Assembly (NCBI RefSeq): GCF_020164595.1
Contig: NZ_JAIQZE010000001.1
Location: forward strand, 496,001 to 560,000
Direction: 5' to 3'
DNA from: Psychroflexus longus
Lineage (GTDB): Bacteria; Bacteroidota; Bacteroidia; Flavobacteriales; Flavobacteriaceae
Length of the DNA: 64,000 bases
Shown: positions 2,581 through 9,590 of the stretch, one piece after another
Numbering within the stretch: position 1 is the first letter of the stretch
Layout of the letters: each line of letters begins with the position of its first letter
Program-made: the position numbers and the translations under genes
Notes under the pieces: generated by a model
The model's input: the letters and a program-made list of their open reading frames with translations, nothing else
Told to the model about the DNA's origin: nothing
Databases searched by the model: none

Positions 2581-3083
2581 TGAGATTAAATTAGCTCAAA
2601 TCATACCATTTAAATAAATACTTAGTCTCATAATCAACATCAAATTTCTCTAGAAGCGATAAATACTCTTCTCTAAAGGATTGCTTTTTATGATGTTGTG
2701 GCTGGTTCAGAATGTATTTCACTACCCTATCAATATGGGATTTGGAGTATATAAACGCTCCAAATCCCTTTTGCGAACTGAATTTTCCGTGGACCAATCC
2801 TTTGTCATTGATCCATTTAGATGAACCCGATTTTACTTGTTCCATCAACTTAGATGGAGATAAATCAGGATGCATCCCTACAAACATATGCGTGTGGTCT
2901 GGATTGCAATAAATCGCATAGGTTTTGCATTTATGATTATCCACAATACCACACATCACTTTTTCCAATTCTTTCCTGAAAGGTTCTCGGATGAGATTGC
3001 CTTCCTTTGACGGAAAACACAAATTGAATGTATAATTGCGTGTATGTATTTGCCATCGCTTTTTATGTCAGGGCGCTGCCCCT
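2556..3083. mobile_element. REP-type element: dead Y1 transposase bracketed by inverted palindromes
   Basis: AGGGGCAGAGCCCTGA at 2556-2571 and TCAGGGCGCTGCCCCT at 3068-3083 are inverted copies matching at 15 of 16 positions, and they bracket the transposase. REP-associated tyrosine transposases are known to be flanked by, and to act on, such inverted hairpins. The element's exact ends are inferred. The frameshift implies it can no longer move by itself. Confidence 0.6.
2591..3056 (-). pseudogene. REP-associated/IS200-like Y1 transposase, frameshifted
   Basis: Single-domain HUH transposase (Transposase_17/TnpA-REP type) that normally nicks and joins single-stranded palindromic repeat DNA. The longest frame (2591-3022) has the HUH pair in NPDHTHMFVGM, a GFGAFIYSKSHID stretch and the YILNQPQHHKKQSF region holding the nucleophilic Tyr, followed by the usual EEYLSLLEKF tail. 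It lacks a proper N-terminus: the family opening MANTYTQLYIQFVFSVKGRQ is encoded from an ATG at 3056 in a different frame. The two frames meet near 2997-3003, where two bases are missing or one is extra. The gene is therefore probably inactive unless frameshifting rescues it. It sits inside the repeat array and between an inverted pair of repeats. Confidence 0.85.
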
Positions 3084-3293: not shown

Positions 3294-4376
3294 CTACTCA
3301 CTAATGATCTTATGTTGATGGCTTATGGATTCTTCGTGAATCGCCTTTAAAATTTTAGTGATGAATTCTTCACTCAAATTATGTTCTCCCCCTGCTTCTA
3401 TCATAGAATCCAGCACAAAATTCCAGCGTTTGGCCTGAAGAATCGCTACATTGTTTTTCTTTTTGAGCCTACCTATATCATCTGCGATTTTCATTCGTTT
3501 TCCTAAGAGATCAATCAGCTGGTGATCGACCACATCAATCTGAGTTCTTAGCGTCTGTAGTTTATTTTGGAAAGCGGTTGCTTCCGTGAACTCCTTCCTC
3601 ATTTTTAGATCAATTGTCATTTGATCTAAAGCCTTTGGCGTAATTTGCTGCTTGGCATCGCTCCAAGCATTGTCCGGATCGAAGTGAGTCTCCACCATGA
3701 TTCCATCAAAATTCAAATCAAGCCCTGTTTGGCAGATATCAAAAATAATATCACGTCGTCCGGCAATATGAGAGGGATCCAGAATAATTGGTAAATCTGG
3801 AAATTCAGTTTGCAAGTCAATCGCAATTTGCCATTCAGGATTATTCCTGTACTTCGTTTTTTCGTAAGTAGAAAATCCTCTGTGAATCACTCCAAGATTT
3901 TTAATATCGGCATCATAAAGTCTTTCTACTGCACCCAACCAAAGCGCTAAATCTGGATTGACGGGGTTTTTGACCAGGACAGTTTTATCGGTTCCCTTTA
4001 AGGCATCCGCGATTTCCTGGACAATAAATGGACTCACGGTGCTTCGTGCTCCAATCCACAGCACATCAATGTCCGCTTTGAGAGCCAATTCGACATGATT
4101 CCTGTTGGCCACTTCGGTCGCTAGCTTGAGTCCTGTTTCCTTTTTTGCAGTTTTTAACCATTCCAGACCAATAGCACCTACGCCTTCAAAATTACCAGGT
4201 CGGGTTCTGGGTTTCCAGATGCCTGCACGCATTACGCTTGTGTCTGTATCTTTAAGCTGATGAGCAATTTTCACCACTTGCTCTTCGGTTTCTGCACTGC
4301 AGGGTCCTGCTATAACTAAAGGATGATCTAGATTGAAGGCATCTAACCATTTTCTCTGTGTGTTGTTAATTTCCAT
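3294..4376 (-). CDS. aroG: bifunctional DAHP synthase / chorismate mutase
   Basis: Enters the shikimate pathway by condensing phosphoenolpyruvate with erythrose 4-phosphate, and also converts chorismate to prephenate. Residues 1-265 are the DAHP synthase barrel of the KDO8P-synthase-like type (GPCSAE 24-29, KPRTRPGNFEG 55-65, RNNPEW, DPSHIAGRR 200-208). Residues 275-355 are an AroQ-type chorismate mutase (LRTQIDVVDHQLIDLLGKRM). The fusion places prephenate production directly beside its consumers. Last gene of a four-gene operon; its start overlaps the tyrA stop by 11 bases. It probably responds to the Phe/Tyr attenuator upstream of pheA. Which aromatic amino acid feeds back on the enzyme cannot be read from the sequence. 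Confidence 0.92.
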   Translation of the reverse strand: MEINNTQRKWLDAFNLDHPLVIAGPCSAETEEQVVKIAHQLKDTDTSVMRAGIWKPRTRPGNFEGVGAIGLEWLKTAKKETGLKLATEVANRNHVELALKADIDVLWIGARSTVSPFIVQEIADALKGTDKTVLVKNPVNPDLALWLGAVERLYDADIKNLGVIHRGFSTYEKTKYRNNPEWQIAIDLQTEFPDLPIILDPSHIAGRRDIIFDICQTGLDLNFDGIMVETHFDPDNAWSDAKQQITPKALDQMTIDLKMRKEFTEATAFQNKLQTLRTQIDVVDHQLIDLLGKRMKIADDIGRLKKKNNVAILQAKRWNFVLDSMIEAGGEHNLSEEFITKILKAIHEESISHQHKIISE

Positions 4377-5235
4377 GACTTTCTTTTTTTAATATTCCGT
4401 TTAAAATAGGTGTTAGGTTATTGACTTCTTGTAATTGTTGATTGATTTCTGAATAATGGCTTTGTTCAAGTTGACCTTTAAAAGCCTGTAGGTTATGAAT
4501 ATATTCTTCCAAAGCCCGTACAACTTCTTCTTGATTTTCTTTGAAAATTGCGGTCCAGGTCACCGGATTGGATTTCGCCAATCTTACCGTAGAAGCAAAT
4601 CCACTTCCTGCCAAATCGAAAATAGTCTTATCATTTTGCTCCACCTGCAGTACAGTTTTACCTAGCATAAATGAACTGATGTGCGACAAATGAGAAACAT
4701 AAGCCAAGTGTTTGTCGTGGTCCTCTGCTCCCATGTATTTGATGCTCATTTCCAAGGGGGCAATTAATGATAAGGCTAAATCTAAAAGCTCTGGACGTGA
4801 GGCCTCAACATCACAAAAAATCATTGTTTTCTTCTCAAAAAGCAAACTAAAAGCCGCTTCCGGTCCTGAAAACTCCGTTCCAGCAATTGGATGTGCTGCC
4901 AGAAATTGATCGCGTTTTGGGTGTTCGGCAATAGCTTTGCATAATTTACCTTTGGTCGAACCCATGTCCATCACCAAAGCCTTTGGATGAACCTTGTCCA
5001 GCACATCCAGAATCACTGAGTTTGCCTTATCTACAGGTATACTTACTACTACTAAGTCCATTTCAATTAGATCTTCATCACTCAAAGCTTGATCTATAAT
5101 ATTCAGCTCAAGAGCTTTTTGAAGATGTTTCGGATTCTTATCCATTCCATAAAGCTGTATTTCAGCAAAATTCTTTTTGAGAGATAATGCAAAGGAACCT
5201 CCTATGAGGCCTAGACCTATACTTGCTACTTTCAT
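4366..5235 (-). CDS. tyrA: prephenate dehydrogenase
   Basis: NAD(P)-dependent oxidative decarboxylation of prephenate to 4-hydroxyphenylpyruvate in tyrosine synthesis. The N-terminal Rossmann motif GLGLIGGS lies at residues 7-14. DMGSTKG and HPIAGTEFSGPEAA carry family active-site positions, and the helical C-terminal dimerisation domain includes HLSHISSF. I chose the ATG at 5235 rather than an in-frame start 33 bases upstream, because it puts the Rossmann motif near the N-terminus and gives the ATGA overlap with the aminotransferase stop that marks translational coupling. No C-terminal ACT domain is seen; the 289-residue length fits a stand-alone dehydrogenase. Confidence 0.92.
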   Translation of the reverse strand: MKVASIGLGLIGGSFALSLKKNFAEIQLYGMDKNPKHLQKALELNIIDQALSDEDLIEMDLVVVSIPVDKANSVILDVLDKVHPKALVMDMGSTKGKLCKAIAEHPKRDQFLAAHPIAGTEFSGPEAAFSLLFEKKTMIFCDVEASRPELLDLALSLIAPLEMSIKYMGAEDHDKHLAYVSHLSHISSFMLGKTVLQVEQNDKTIFDLAGSGFASTVRLAKSNPVTWTAIFKENQEEVVRALEEYIHNLQAFKGQLEQSHYSEINQQLQEVNNLTPILNGILKKESHGN

Positions 5236-6392
5236 ACGGCTTTTGGCTTTAAGATGCGTTCTTTGCACGTTTTTAGTTCATCTTCAGAAACACATAAGGA
5301 AAAGCGGACGTAGTTGGAGCCGTTTGTCCCAAACACGGTGCCTGGAGTGACAAACAAATTCCGGTCATACAGTAATTCATCAGCAAGATCTTCAGCGGTT
5401 TGGTTAGATTTGATTTTAGCCCAAACAAAAAGCCCAACAGCTGAAGGATTGACTTTCAAATCTAAAGCTTCACACATCTCCCAAATCAAAGCCCGGCGTT
5501 TTTTGTAAATGACATTTTGAGCTTCAAACCAAGCTAAGTCGAGTTGCAAAGCTTTGGTGGCTGCCTTTTGAATAGGAAAGAACATACCACTATCCATATT
5601 GCTTTTCACTTTTAAAACCGCTGAAATAAATTCAGCATTGCCCACCAAAAAACCAACTCTAAAGCCAGCCAGATTAAAAGATTTGCTCAAAGAATTCAAT
5701 TCTAGACATACTTCTTCCGCCCCTTCTAGTTGAAAAATTGAAAATTTTTCATCCGTCAAAACCATGCTGTAAGGATTATCATTGACCAATAGAATATCGT
5801 TGGCTTTTGCAAAACCAATCAATTCCTGAAGCTTTTCCTGATCTGCAGGCTGACCCGTAGGCATGTTAGGATAATTGATCCACATCAATTTCACCTTTGA
5901 AAGATCCAGTTGCTTCAATTCTTCCACGTCTGGATGCCAGGAGTTGTCTTCGGTTAAATTATAAGAAACGAGTTCTGCGTTGAGCAATTTGGTAGCCGCC
6001 TGGTAAGTAGGATAGCCAGGATTTGGTACCAAAACCTGATCACCTTCATTTAGAAAAGCCATAGAAATCAAAGCAATTCCTTCCTTGGATCCCATGAGCG
6101 GCAAGACTTGAGTTTCTGTATTGACATTTACATCATAATGATTTTTATAAAACCCAGACATGGCCTGCCTTAACTCATCTAAACCCTTATAGGCCTGATA
6201 TTGGTAAGCACCTTGTTGAGAAGTGGCCTTCACCAATTCCTCAACCACTTCTTCTGGCGGCGCTAAATCTGGACTCCCAATCCCTAAATTGATGATGGGT
6301 TTTCCCTCTTTTTTGAGCTGAGCAACTTCCCTCAATTTTTTACTGAAGTAGTACTCTTTGGTTTCCTGAAGTCTGTTGGATAACGAAATCAT
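5232..6392 (-). CDS. class I/II pyridoxal-phosphate aminotransferase, probably aromatic
   Basis: Fold-type I aminotransferase of 386 residues. Visible motifs are NLGIGSPDLAPP near the N-terminus, NPGYPTY (124-130), NYPNMPTG (173-180) with the PLP-ring asparagine, ND-PYS, the Schiff-base lysine K237 in SLSKSFNLAGFRVG, and a substrate-carboxylate arginine in NYVRFSLC. Sitting between pheA and tyrA, it most likely transaminates phenylpyruvate and 4-hydroxyphenylpyruvate to Phe and Tyr, or prephenate to arogenate. Family alone would also allow aspartate, LL-diaminopimelate or another amino acid, so the substrate is inferred from the operon. It overlaps the upstream pheA stop by 4 bases. Confidence 0.88.
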   Translation of the reverse strand: MISLSNRLQETKEYYFSKKLREVAQLKKEGKPIINLGIGSPDLAPPEEVVEELVKATSQQGAYQYQAYKGLDELRQAMSGFYKNHYDVNVNTETQVLPLMGSKEGIALISMAFLNEGDQVLVPNPGYPTYQAATKLLNAELVSYNLTEDNSWHPDVEELKQLDLSKVKLMWINYPNMPTGQPADQEKLQELIGFAKANDILLVNDNPYSMVLTDEKFSIFQLEGAEEVCLELNSLSKSFNLAGFRVGFLVGNAEFISAVLKVKSNMDSGMFFPIQKAATKALQLDLAWFEAQNVIYKKRRALIWEMCEALDLKVNPSAVGLFVWAKIKSNQTAEDLADELLYDRNLFVTPGTVFGTNGSNYVRFSLCVSEDELKTCKERILKPKAV

Positions 6393-7207
6393 GACTTTCC
6401 ATTTTTGTATTGACCTACACAGGTCGGGTTTATACTTATTGCTGAAATTGCTTTGAAAGCTTTTTGAAAATGCAGTTCATTTTGAAAACTAACATCTACT
6501 ATAAAAGCGTATTTCCATATATTATTTGGAATCGGAATGCTTTGGATTTTGGATAAATTCAAATGGTGATCTGCCATAAGATTAAGCACTCGCGCTAAAC
6601 TTCCAGACTCATGAGCAATTTCAAACTGAAGGGTCGCCTTATTGACATCATCGCTTAAGTTGGCTTGTTTTTCGATGACCACAAAACGAGTTTCATTGAG
6701 GCTATTGTTCTGAACATCTTCAGCAATTACATTTAAATTGAAGAGTTCTGCTGTGCCTTTGGGCACAAGTGCTCCAACGCCAGAGATTTGCTGCTGGGCA
6801 ATTACCTGAGCAGGTAAGGCCGTATCCACATCCTCTATAAGATGAATATGGGTTTGATCTGTAAAGAAATAACTGCATTGGTGCAACGCCATCTGATGCG
6901 ACTTAACCTGAACTAAATCTGCTAGCTCCTGACCTGGAAGCGCCACCAAATTATGACTGATGTTCAAGTAATATTCAGCTGTGATTTGCAGGTTATAATC
7001 CAGAATGAGTCGGTAGTTTGGCAAAATACTCCCTGCAATGGAATTTTCAATAGCCATAATGGCTTTTTGAGATTCGCCAGTAACGACGGAACTAACCAGT
7101 CTTTGGAAGGTTGAACACTCTTCAACCTCAACATGATCAACATCAAAAAGCTCGGTTAAAGCTTTGTAATGGTTGGATCCCTTTATTCCTTGTATGGCTA
7201 CTTTCAT
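6389..7207 (-). CDS. pheA: prephenate dehydratase
   Basis: Converts prephenate to phenylpyruvate, the committed step to phenylalanine. Residues 1-180 are the PDT domain (IENSIAGSI 53-61, SHQMALHQC 103-111, catalytic T173-R-F in NETRFVVIE). Residues 192-265 are an ACT domain with GSLARVL and a SKIQSIPIP segment in place of the usual KIESRP, the expected phenylalanine sensor. It is a stand-alone dehydratase because the mutase is fused to the DAHP synthase instead. First structural gene of the operon; its ATG lies 16 bases past the end of the attenuator hairpin and has no Shine-Dalgarno. Translationally coupled (4-base overlap) to the next gene. Confidence 0.93.
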   Translation of the reverse strand: MKVAIQGIKGSNHYKALTELFDVDHVEVEECSTFQRLVSSVVTGESQKAIMAIENSIAGSILPNYRLILDYNLQITAEYYLNISHNLVALPGQELADLVQVKSHQMALHQCSYFFTDQTHIHLIEDVDTALPAQVIAQQQISGVGALVPKGTAELFNLNVIAEDVQNNSLNETRFVVIEKQANLSDDVNKATLQFEIAHESGSLARVLNLMADHHLNLSKIQSIPIPNNIWKYAFIVDVSFQNELHFQKAFKAISAISINPTCVGQYKNGKS

Positions 7208-7213
7208 TTTTAT

Positions 7214-7246
7214 AAATAAAAAAAAGCCCCGTAAAAACGAGGCTTT
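7214..7246 (-). terminator. attenuator terminator in the pheA leader
   Basis: On the minus strand AAAGCCTCG (7246-7238) pairs with CGGGGCTTT (7231-7223), nine base pairs with one U-G wobble and a six-base loop, followed directly by eight T. This is a textbook intrinsic terminator lying upstream of pheA and downstream of the leader peptide, so it can only serve as a conditional, premature stop. Confidence 0.88.
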
Positions 7247-7285
7247 ATATATTAATAATGAATTTATTTCATATCAACCTCGTTT
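7235..7285 (-). promoter_or_regulatory. antiterminator pairing competing with the pheA attenuator
   Basis: AAACGAGG at 7285-7278 on the minus strand is a perfect complement of CCTCGTTT at 7242-7235, which contains most of the 5' arm of the terminator. The two structures cannot coexist. The first strand lies in codons 18-20 of the leader peptide, exactly where a ribosome finishing the peptide would cover it and one stalled on the Phe/Tyr codons would leave it free. Confidence 0.82.
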
Positions 7286-7336
7286 CGCCGAATTAGCAAA
7301 ATAAAAGTTGAAATAAAAATAAAAACGAGTTGTCAT
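7274..7336 (-). CDS. Phe/Tyr-rich leader peptide of the pheA operon
   Basis: Twenty-codon ORF beginning ATG at 7336 and ending TGA at 7276-7274. Residues 5-13 read FYFYFNFYF: five Phe and three Tyr in nine codons, a composition not expected by chance. It ends just before the terminator and its last three sense codons form the antiterminator strand. The peptide should be a sensor of charged tRNA-Phe and tRNA-Tyr: when either is scarce the ribosome stalls and the operon is read through. Function is inferred from the architecture shared with proteobacterial trp/phe/his leaders. Confidence 0.88.
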   Translation of the reverse strand: MTTRFYFYFNFYFANSAKRG

Positions 7337-7354
7337 TTGTCTTGTAATATATGA

Positions 7355-7383
7355 CTAAATTAAAATTTATTTTGAATAAACAA
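7355..7383 (-). promoter_or_regulatory. candidate promoter of the pheA operon
   Basis: On the minus strand TTG (7383-7381), an 18-base spacer and TAATTTAG (7362-7355) approximate the Bacteroidetes TTG / TAnnTTTG promoter with one mismatch in the -7 box. A start about six bases downstream would give a short leader ahead of the peptide ATG at 7336. Confidence 0.45.
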
Positions 7384-7410
7384 GCTTAAACCTAAATAAA
7401 ATTCAAGAAA

Positions 7411-7512
7411 TTAATCTTTATGATAAGTTTCTTGCCTTGGAAGGTTTAAAAATTCTTTCACTATAGCTAGTTCAGAATTGTCTTTTAACCAAAACAGATG
7501 GTAAATCTTTAG
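7411..7512 (-). pseudogene. short coding remnant, possibly the tail of an M24 peptidase copy
   Basis: Minus-strand frame ending TAA at 7413-7411 reads VKEFLNLPRQETYHKD. It resembles the C-terminus of the intact M24 peptidase nearby (RQKEFLTIPRQESYLKN), and the DNA matches at 28 of 34 positions (7427-7460 against 8257-8290). No start or further homologous sequence is visible upstream, so only a tail would remain. The match is short and could be coincidental. Confidence 0.3.
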
Positions 7513-7534
7513 TAATGATTTAAAAAATAGAGTT

Positions 7535-8127
7535 TTAATATTCAAACACAAGATCCATAGGAAACTGTAAATCTGGAAATAATTTGGAGGTTATAATTTC
7601 ATCTTTGTCTTCTTAGATCTGGAATTCCTGAAATTCTTCATTTTCTAAAGAGAATATTTGTAGTGACTTTCCTTCCGGATTCACAAGCCAATATTCTTTG
7701 ACACCGTTTTCCTGATAGAGATTAAACTTTTCGTTGTAATCTTTTTTCATTGTAGAACTTGAAAGCACTTCCATAATTAAATCTGGCGCTCCAACACATC
7801 CACAATCATCCAATTTGGAGGGGTCACAAATCACACAAATATCGGGCTGCACAACAGTAGTGATTTCTTTATCTTCTTCACCAATATTTTTCACTAAGCA
7901 TACATCAAACGGCGATTGGTAGACTTTACAATTCTTATTTTCTAAAAATTTCTATAGCTGTACGTGGGTAACACCTTCAATTCTTTTATGAAAAGCCTTG
8001 GCGCCGGACTTATTTTATAAATACGCCCTTTGATGAGCTCTACCCGTTCCTGAAACCTCCAGGTCAGATAATCAGTATATGTTTTGCTGAAAGCCAATTG
8101 CGATATATCGGTAATTTTTGGCTTCAT
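7535..8127 (-). pseudogene. Uma2-family (DUF820) putative endonuclease, decayed
   Basis: Uma2 proteins have a restriction-endonuclease-like fold and mostly unknown roles. The 5' part reads MKPKITDISQLAFSKTYTDYLTWRFQERVELIKGRIYKISPAP. The 3' part holds the conserved VVQPDICVICDP, APDLIMEVLSSST, FNLYQENGVKEYWLVNPEGKSLQIF and a typical tail EDKDEIITSKLFPDLQFP. Three lesions separate them: a frameshift just after ISPAP (about 7998-8003), an in-frame TAG near 7955 between HVQL and KFLENK, and an in-frame TAA at 7614-7612 before the tail. I placed the start at the ATG of MKPK (8127) and the end at the TAA at 7537-7535. Confidence 0.82.
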
Positions 8128-8240
8128 TACGAAATTAATTGTTTGTAAATCACCTATATAGAATATTTGTTTAGGTGTGTTTTTGGTCAAACTTAAATCA
8201 GGTTACAACAGCTGTTGCCTTCAAAAAATATAATCGAAAC

Positions 8241-9590
8241 TTAGTTTTTTAAATATGATTCTTGTCTTGGAATGGTTAAGAATTCTTTCTGTCTGCCATT
8301 CAAATAAATGACTTGTTCTCCCTCATAATGCGCTCCTTCTTCCAACATGACTCTGAAGGGTTTTTGCCATTCTTCAAGAAAAACTTCAGCATTCAATTCA
8401 ATAGCGTATACGGTATTTGGATATAAACTGTAATTTCCAGAACCAGGCACATCACCCTGATTATCCCACATGCCGATAGTTGGACCTGCAGCATGTCCAT
8501 GATAACCCATGGGGTGCGTATAAATCGTACCCTTGATATCTTCAGCTTTCATTTGTGTTCTAGCCTGCTTCAAAATTTCATTGCCTGTTCGTCCTGTTTT
8601 GAAATTGGAAGTTAAAATATCCTGCAAACGATTTCCAACAGCTAAAGCATCTACTAAATATTGGGGAACCTCTTTCTCATCCGGTTTTAAGACATAGGCC
8701 AATTCTTGGGTATCTGTGTTAAGTCTTAAGTAGGTAATCCCAAAATCCATATGTAAAACATCACCGGGCATAATGACTTCGGGATCTGGGTTGTTATCGA
8801 AGGTTCTTAAATGCTCCTTGCTTTCGTTACTTGCTCTTTGTATATCAACGGTCGGATGAAACCAGGTTTCTAGTCCCAAGTCTTTTATCCTGTCTCTATA
8901 CCACCACACCACATCTGTAGTTTTGGTAACCCCAGGAGTGATCACCTGTTCTGATAAACCCTCCTGAATAATGTCATGCGCAATGCTTTGAATGTGTTTG
9001 TAAGTCGCTAATTCTGAAGCAGTCCTTGTTTCTAACCAACCCACTGCTAAATCTTCAGCTGAAGTCAATTTCTTATGATACGATTTCGGTAAATTTTCCA
9101 AAAGTAATTTATATTCTGTATGATTTAATCCATCAGCATGTCCAAAATCATCTGAAGTATTGATGCCGATTTTATTCGGGTTTCTCTCTTTTATCAATTC
9201 TACCAATCGCTTCCACTGGTCTGGTTGTTGTTCGGGATCCCAGGCTTTTTTGAAATGTTCTCCCACATTATACCTTGCTACAGCAATGGTTTCTACTTTG
9301 TCACTAGATTTTGGCTTGTACATCAACAACATGGTTCTTCGCCTGGCTGCAAGCCAGGTGCTTGGTAATAGGGTTTTAATGATAGGATCTTCGTTGTACT
9401 CCCTGGAAATCACCAGCCACATGTCTATACCTGCTCTATCCATCACTTCTGGAAGGACCGTTTCCAGACGCTCACCAAGCCATTGGTCAATCACTTCAGA
9501 TTGCTCTTTTTGAGACAAAACAGCGAAATCCTGAGCTTGAAAGCTAATGGACATTATTAAAACAAGAAATAGAGTTAACAAGGTTTTCAT
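8241..9590 (-). CDS. secreted M24-family metallopeptidase (Xaa-Pro aminopeptidase type)
   Basis: Predicted dinuclear-metal aminopeptidase of 449 residues. A signal peptide (MKTLLTLFLVLIMSISFQAQ) sends it to the periplasm or beyond. Residues 30-190 resemble the creatinase N-terminal domain. The C-terminal pita-bread domain (195-435) shows metal-ligand candidates D282 in HMDFGI, D293, a histidine in HPMGYHGHAAGP (359-370), E398 in YAIELN and E417 in MLEEG. Substrate specificity cannot be read. No close operon partner: a 208-base gap with the clp terminator lies upstream, and the Uma2 pseudogene lies downstream. Confidence 0.85.
   Translation of the reverse strand: MKTLLTLFLVLIMSISFQAQDFAVLSQKEQSEVIDQWLGERLETVLPEVMDRAGIDMWLVISREYNEDPIIKTLLPSTWLAARRRTMLLMYKPKSSDKVETIAVARYNVGEHFKKAWDPEQQPDQWKRLVELIKERNPNKIGINTSDDFGHADGLNHTEYKLLLENLPKSYHKKLTSAEDLAVGWLETRTASELATYKHIQSIAHDIIQEGLSEQVITPGVTKTTDVVWWYRDRIKDLGLETWFHPTVDIQRASNESKEHLRTFDNNPDPEVIMPGDVLHMDFGITYLRLNTDTQELAYVLKPDEKEVPQYLVDALAVGNRLQDILTSNFKTGRTGNEILKQARTQMKAEDIKGTIYTHPMGYHGHAAGPTIGMWDNQGDVPGSGNYSLYPNTVYAIELNAEVFLEEWQKPFRVMLEEGAHYEGEQVIYLNGRQKEFLTIPRQESYLKN

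Follow-up and report, generated by a model that had tools for sequence, protein, structure and literature searches.

How is transcription of the pheA operon of Psychroflexus longus controlled? In the stretch of 64,000 nucleotides analysed here (the window), pheA, an aminotransferase gene, tyrA, and a gene for DAHP synthase fused to chorismate mutase (CM) lie on one strand with overlapping ORF ends (Table 1). A preliminary description of this DNA proposed ribosome-mediated attenuation from a 20-codon ORF with eight Phe/Tyr codons in nine directly upstream of pheA and a terminator immediately behind it. Translation of 7336-7274 on the minus strand confirms the ORF (MTTRFYFYFNFYFANSAKRG*, 20 codons plus stop), and the predicted terminator (AAAGCCTCGTTTTTACGGGGCTTT), with its 10-bp stem and U-rich tail, starts 27 nt after the leader stop. 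The leader ATG is 129 nt from the pheA ATG (7207), and the ORF ends 66 nt upstream of the latter. As judged from the sequence, the locus probably contains a classical ribosome-mediated transcription attenuator, to which we give a probability of roughly nine in ten. The proposal draws support from the regulatory codons, the terminator, competing hairpins with compensatory changes, and the behavior of a ribosome placed on the RNA in silico.

Table 1. Features of the pheA leader region and operon in the window.
Feature	Position	Strand	Remarks
Bacteroidetes-type candidate promoter	7355..7384	-	CTTG (7384-7381), 18 nt, TAATTTAG (7362-7355); 8/10 consensus positions
Leader peptide ORF (putative)	7274..7336	-	translates to MTTRFYFYFNFYFANSAKRG*; relatives found in other genomes
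Regulatory codons FYFYFNFYF (8/9 Phe/Tyr)	7298..7324	-	few nonsynonymous changes in 10 close relatives
Segment 1 (protector) TCAACTTT	7304..7311	-	pairs with 7281-7274; consensus fold; both-sides changes at 4/8 pairs
Segment 2 CGAGGTTGA	7274..7282	-	overlaps leader end and stop codon; pairs with segment 1 or 3
Segment 3 AGCCTCG	7238..7244	-	pairs with 7282-7276 (antiterminator) or within terminator
Intrinsic terminator (predicted)	7223..7246	-	10-bp stem, U-rich tract at 7222-7213; -13.7 kcal/mol; AAAGCCTCGTTTTTACGGGGCTTT
pheA, prephenate dehydratase with ACT domain	6389..7207	-	PF00800 2.1e-44, PF01842 1.2e-06
Class I/II aminotransferase	5232..6392	-	PF00155 7.2e-66
tyrA, prephenate dehydrogenase	4366..5268	-	PF02153 3.5e-33, PF20463 2.9e-22
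DAHP synthase fused to CM	3294..4376	-	PF00793 1.3e-37, PF01817 1.5e-23

A run of Phe and Tyr codons proves little by itself because five-codon runs of this kind are common in the genome. The looser 5-codon pattern has 156 matches versus 296 for the reversed pattern, which is unremarkable and uninformative. The full 27-base pattern (five F/Y codons, then a free one, then three more F/Y codons) has a single match in the 2.95-Mb genome, and its reversed control has none.

The predicted RNA structure offers two mutually exclusive partners for the end of the leader. Part of segment 2 (CGAGGTT, 7282-7276) is complementary to segment 3 (7244-7238) in the 5' arm of the terminator, and the antiterminator that these strands would form excludes the terminator. 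Positions 7281-7274 of segment 2 are also complementary to segment 1 (7311-7304) inside the F/Y codons, giving a putative protector hairpin that uses the regulatory codons themselves. The nonaromatic AAC (Asn) codon in the middle of the block may have been kept because it belongs to segment 1. The 143-nt leader RNA folds with a predicted energy of -34.8 kcal/mol (z = -6.1 versus shuffled sequence).

An alignment of 21 leaders (20 from Psychroflexus, including the window, and one from another genus) contains compensatory changes in the protector, the antiterminator, and the terminator, and its consensus fold recovers the 1:2 hairpin and the terminator. In the antiterminator 88.4% of cells are paired and 13 are changed on both sides; none of 500 shuffles was as high on either measure, and slid controls reached at most 59.2% paired. 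For the protector and terminator together, the paired share is 93.8% and 39 cells are changed on both sides; again, none of the 500 shuffles came as high, and slid controls reached at most 63.5% paired. The count of pairs with a both-sides change is unexceptional, being matched by 151 of 500 shuffles for the antiterminator and 76 of 500 for the other two helices. Across the larger set of leaders described below, the leader tail pairs with the terminator arm better than dinucleotide shuffles do in 79 of 109 cases (p <= 0.05; mean z -3.1). It pairs better than the tails of other genomes at this level in only 31 of 109, because the terminator arms resemble each other.

We modeled a translating ribosome by masking everything up to a point 12 nt downstream of where the A-site codon starts, then folding the remainder when segment 3 is complete. 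For the window, with no ribosome and segment 3 just emerged, the 1:2 pairing has a probability of 0.75 and the 2:3 pairing one of 0.25. With codons numbered from Met = 0, an A site anywhere from index 3 to index 14 brings the 2:3 probability to 1.00; the value is 0.28 at index 15 and 0.00 from 16 on. The F/Y codons occupy index 4-8 and 10-12, and every position from 3 to 14, beyond these codons alone, frees the antiterminator in the model; specificity for Phe and Tyr would therefore rest on which codons stall. At equilibrium the completed terminator wins wherever the ribosome stands (0.81-1.00). The choice between the two folds must therefore be made kinetically, as it usually is in attenuators.

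The same masking was applied to 106 leaders, a set that leaves out three loci (L163, L026, and L106) in which the picked leader or terminator looked wrong. Pairing of arm 3 with upstream RNA averages 0.74 when the ribosome is stalled, 0.10 when it is at the stop codon, and 0.58 without a ribosome. The stalled value exceeds 0.5 in 105 of 106 leaders and exceeds the value without a ribosome in 96; at the stop codon, pairing falls below 0.2 in 88 leaders and does not in 18. Shuffled segments in the stalled state give a mean of 0.44, with 23 of 106 shuffle means above 0.5. In the modeled co-transcriptional state, a stall is predicted to free the antiterminator and a ribosome at the stop to mask it.

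From the leader, the terminator, the mutually exclusive pairings, the conservation, and the operon content we infer the following course of events. Transcription would start just upstream of the leader ORF. If charged tRNA-Phe and tRNA-Tyr are plentiful, then the ribosome would reach the leader end and cover segment 2, segment 3 would be free to form the terminator, and RNA polymerase would stop before pheA. If either Phe or Tyr is short, then the ribosome would stall in FYFYFNFYF, where it would block segment 1 and leave segment 2 free. Segment 2 could then capture segment 3 as it emerges, and polymerase would run into pheA-aminotransferase-tyrA-DAHP synthase/chorismate mutase. Without translation, the 1:2 protector hairpin would favor termination.

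A candidate promoter fits such a start. The Bacteroidetes consensus is TTTG-N18-21-TAnnTTTG, and the best match in the window, CTTG-18-TAATTTAG, ends 18 nt before the leader ATG. If it is used, then the leader 5' UTR would be about a dozen bases long. At least 9 of 10 promoter positions are matched in the 70 nt upstream of the leader ATG in 69 of 109 leaders, whereas base shuffles would give about 3.3. We rejected a sigma-70 promoter of the E. coli type (5 sites found versus 3.7 expected).

Of the named relatives found, Psychroflexus species are closest (10 loci), and codon differences among 10 close leaders from this genus follow the proposed division of the ORF. Of the differences in the F/Y block (405 codon comparisons), 29 are synonymous and 27 nonsynonymous, and all 27 of the latter trace to three single-species changes. 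Codons 2-4 have 23 synonymous and 47 nonsynonymous differences in 135 comparisons, and codons 14-17 have 6 and 69 in 180. Codons 18-20, which are part of segment 2, have 21 synonymous and no nonsynonymous differences in 135. In this pattern the regulatory codons are conserved, the flanks drift, and the tail appears to be held by RNA pairing. Conserved Phe/Tyr codons between variable flanks are what the preliminary description had expected of an alignment of relatives.

We located the start of the prephenate dehydratase (PDT) gene and read the upstream DNA in 149 Bacteroidia genomes, which are not a fair sample of the class. A leader was scored as an ATG ORF of 8-45 codons within 400 nt upstream of the PDT start with at least five Phe/Tyr in 9 codons. 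Such an ORF is present in 110 of the 149 genomes and missing from 39, and a terminator follows it in 109 of the 110. Leader-positive genomes span 53 genera, with two loci (L163 and L026) set aside. Among the first 138 genomes, at least five F/Y in 9 codons occur in 107, at least six in 101, and at least eight in 33. The corresponding figures are 5.7%, 1.3%, and 0 for 1380 dinucleotide shuffles and 4, 0, and 0 for 138 reverse complements.

The genomes came from three samples. PDT matches were found in 40 of 60 genomes in the first sample, all 40 of which were read; in 72 of 247 in the second (G177 left out); and in 119 of 196 in the third, from which 30 loci were taken automatically and 20 were chosen by hand, with 12 already in the set. 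Left out of the third were 57 PDT-matching genomes (32 from f16, the family with 0.6-Mb genomes, 21 from family f5, and 4 others). The leader share of 110/149 is inflated because these are mostly from two families that largely lack the leader. Two loci (L101 and L114) were dropped since no PDT start was found. The strict rule counts as negative three genomes with four F/Y codons, or five with W (G227, G114, and G061), and one with a GTG start (G300).

No strict leader is present in five of the six genomes read from family f16, which are endosymbiont-like in size; in the remaining one (L151), no terminator follows the F/Y ORF. All four genes remain in G307, the only f16 genome whose operon was read; loss of the leader with retention of the operon is expected if relaxed selection removes regulation first. 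In family f5, 11 of 12 genomes read have no leader and a distant dehydratase (~26-31% identity); the dehydratase of the twelfth (G409) is closer, and its ORF is doubtful. Within the window's own genus, 7 of 26 other genomes gave no PDT match (G002, G016, G018, G019, G020, G022, and G023). The pheA operon may have been lost in part of the genus, or these assemblies may be incomplete.

Four of the 149 genomes have tandem leader-terminator modules before pheA: three modules in G059 (L039) and two each in G226 (L100), G113 (L106), and G161 (L120). They belong to three families (f13, f62, and f50), and every module carries aromatic codons. Those of G059 lie ~64-429 bases upstream of pheA and are Phe-rich without Tyr when read from the nearer ATG. 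The window itself has one module.

Two explanations would deny the leader a regulatory role. T-rich DNA readily yields F/Y runs, as the five-codon counts illustrate, and the ORF could be a chance product of AT-rich sequence beside the terminator of an upstream gene. However, the ORF recurs in 53 genera, and the 27-base genome pattern and the shuffle and reverse-complement controls led us to reject a chance ORF. An ordinary terminator of an upstream gene was rejected because the terminator arm covaries with the leader tail, and we assign the combination a negligible probability. It is also conceivable that the ORF is incidental and that another ligand or a protein controls the terminator, through a T-box, a riboswitch, or an RNA-binding protein, since 5' UTR terminators can serve other sensors. 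Against this, the aromatic codons are kept while their flanks vary, no T-box or riboswitch family is among the 8 Rfam matches at E <= 5 for window positions 6000-8500, and 11 relatives gave 3 unrelated sub-threshold Rfam matches at E <= 0.1; we consider such a sensor very improbable. Known Rfam families were rejected for the window and these 11 relatives.

If the attenuator reading is right, then the operon content should indicate what the leader serves. The downstream genes had been taken to be exactly those for Phe and Tyr, and pheA and tyrA are indeed present. However, the fourth gene encodes DAHP synthase-CM, the entry step shared by the Phe, Tyr, and Trp pathways, whose product also feeds Trp. 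We read the downstream DNA (3.2-6.5 kb, tblastn) of 60 loci outside Psychroflexus that were chosen for spread; 34 of the 89 non-Psychroflexus genomes with leader and terminator are represented among them. A search for DAHP synthase-CM succeeded in all 34 of these leader loci, as it did in 10 of 10 Psychroflexus loci. Among 25 leader-negative loci, 9 gave a hit for this gene and 16 did not; G114 is excluded because its contig ends there (Fisher p ~2e-8 for the association, kinship uncorrected). Two of the 16 (G040 and G270) gave no PDT hit either, which makes the absence uninformative in those cases. That some strict leader-negative genomes carry the DAHP synthase operon counts against the attenuator reading; of these nine, G227, G061, and G300 would score as leader-positive if the rule were relaxed (F/Y/W count or GTG start), and G307, G298, and G082 have genomes of 0.5-1.2 Mb. 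PDT-aminotransferase-TyrA operons without DAHP synthase were also found without a leader (L187 in G146, L190 in G147, L193-L195, L197, L198, L200-L202, and L205).

The mixture of Phe and Tyr codons had been explained by a joint operon for the two amino acids, and this explanation is incomplete. In twelve leader-positive operons, PDT and DAHP synthase were the only genes detected. Three of these genomes have a strong TyrA match elsewhere (G071, G283, and G096), and the other nine yielded either no match or one that is partial and marginal; Phe and Tyr codons are nonetheless mixed in the leaders of these nine. All 9 genomes without a clear TyrA have a gene of the phenylalanine hydroxylase family, versus 5 of 14 other genomes searched, and the enzyme could supply Tyr from Phe in the nine. 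In another five operons where TyrA gave no hit, a divergent match to the TyrA family lies nearby. Mixed codons thus persist without a linked tyrA and appear independent of a pheA-tyrA operon, and they fit control of the common entry step, with DAHP synthase-CM as the constant gene. The genome of the window has a phenylalanine hydroxylase family gene as well (G000:C1:255830-256528, PF00351 1.5e-42), and Tyr may be made by two routes there.

Which amino acids the leader senses can be argued in two directions. Stalling at Phe codons might be all that matters, with Tyr codons as tolerated neighbors: TTY and TAY are one base apart and a T-rich tract suits the RNA, known proteobacterial pheA leaders hold Phe alone, the G059 modules lack Tyr by the nearer ATG, and one F-to-Y swap occurs, in L005. 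However, Tyr is present in 108 of 109 leaders and makes up 19.7% of genus-weighted control-region residues, and the Tyr positions are kept in the 10 close relatives despite silent TAT/TAC changes, which makes sensing of Phe alone unlikely. Conversely, relatives of the leader might track Phe, Tyr, and, where TGG is present, Trp, because the constant operon gene is the entry to all three pathways. Its presence in every leader locus examined downstream favors this extension, as does the occurrence of Trp codons, which are present in 43 of 107 leaders and in 23 of 53 genera. With weighting by genus, Trp makes up 23 of 494 non-F/Y control-region residues (4.7%), versus ~1.2% of residues in ordinary proteins. 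Counts of W are favored by the definition of this region, whose end was set at the last F/Y/W codon, and the genera are not independent; as the weaker line of evidence, these codons agree with entry-step control. The window's own leader has no Trp codon, and of the 46 Trp codons counted, 33 are 7-16 codons upstream of the last F/Y codon, a position at which stalling may have less effect. Tracking of all three amino acids is accordingly a tentative reading, with the odds somewhat against it.

Leader relatives in many Bacteroidia look tuned to the aromatic family as a whole. Comparison of the operons gives good support to a refined logic for the attenuator, which would be a gate at the aromatic entry step rather than a switch for a Phe/Tyr gene pair, with a reach far beyond one genome. 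An old, Bacteroidia-wide control of aromatic entry might underlie it. One leader would read Phe, Tyr, and in many genera Trp; DAHP synthase-chorismate mutase would be the invariant target; some lineages would have two or three tandem modules; and Tyr codons would be kept where TyrA was not found because phenylalanine hydroxylase makes Tyr from Phe. We regard this composite as possible and speculative, with perhaps one chance in three of being correct in full.

Leader-peptide attenuation is a textbook device of Proteobacteria, and the window leader appears to be a new example of this known type. Its 1:2 / 2:3 / 3:4 architecture is common to pheL. The gamma-proteobacterial pheL/pheA attenuator (RF01859, Phe_leader) also has a short leader with Phe codons before pheA and a U-tract terminator, whereas the leaders described here mix Phe and Tyr (elsewhere Trp) codons and the operon ends in DAHP synthase-CM. 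In a cmscan search the window aligns to the full RF01859 model (1-125) with 30.9 bits, which is below the gathering score of 55 and does not place it in that family; Leu_leader (24.8 bits) and Trp_leader (20 bits) are further weak matches. In Escherichia coli, ilvL and thrL are likewise single leaders with codons of several related amino acids from a shared pathway, but they serve the branched-chain and threonine pathways and the leader here is aromatic.

A comparative paper by Lopatovskaya et al. (2010) may cover Bacteroidetes. For Bacteroides thetaiotaomicron, Table 7 of PMC1173090 (Song et al. 2005) gives a putative attenuator, taken by its authors from the Merino website, ahead of pheA > hisHb > aroAI-beta-aroQ > tyrA. 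It resembles ours in operon type and phylum; the main text of that paper does not use the word 'leader' and so gives no leader peptide or codon content. For Flavobacterium psychrophilum, PMC9723704 (2021) describes a transcribed structured 5' element before pheA that occurs in other Flavobacteriaceae without an Rfam hit, and it mentions 'strong clues' for leader-peptide attenuation before amino acid operons; its section 19 contains no leader sequence, codon logic, or DAHP synthase link. According to the available text of PMC2965389 (2010), leader peptide systems were known only in Proteobacteria and Actinobacteria besides its own Firmicutes finding. The judgment that attenuation is little studied in Bacteroidetes is therefore fair, but the subject is not untouched, and there were earlier, partial predictions of attenuators before pheA in Bacteroidota (PMC1173090, PMC9723704). 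The accessible parts of the open-licence literature yielded nothing on leaders that mix Phe and Tyr codons or on a link to DAHP synthase. For tandem modules, the available text on Salmonella mgtCBR (PMC3641672) offers a parallel, with more than one attenuator and short ORF per leader mRNA as in the four genomes above; its two attenuators answer different signals (ATP and proline), whereas the modules of all four genomes carry aromatic codons.

The leader set from 53 Bacteroidia genera makes it possible to test whether the proximity of ribosome and RNA polymerase in Bacteroidota suffices for attenuation and whether one leader can integrate several end products of a branched pathway at their shared entry step. 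If the Bacteroidia-wide aromatic-entry reading is true, then it would imply close coupling of transcription and translation in Bacteroidota, a phylum that, to our knowledge, hardly uses Shine-Dalgarno initiation. The set also supplies many small leader genes and predicted switchable terminators, unrecognised by Rfam in the window and 11 relatives, and a natural series of none to three leader modules.

The surroundings of the operon hold some minor features. On the minus strand, an IS200-like transposase ORF (PF01797) lies at 2591-3022, downstream of the DAHP synthase gene, and remnants of a broken Uma2-like gene lie upstream of the leader at 7613-8202 (piece 7613-7951, PF05685 7.8e-22; piece 7942-8202, no Pfam match). 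A tRNA search of the 64-kb window found none. Elsewhere in the same genome, an HHH leader (MKTLNLHHHLSISLNAVVM) precedes hisG (locus L169, G000:C40) and a WWW leader (MFNNQNNSWWWSLLRQTS) precedes trpE (locus L170, G000:C4), each followed by a terminator-like hairpin. With these two leaders present, attenuation seems routine in Psychroflexus longus.
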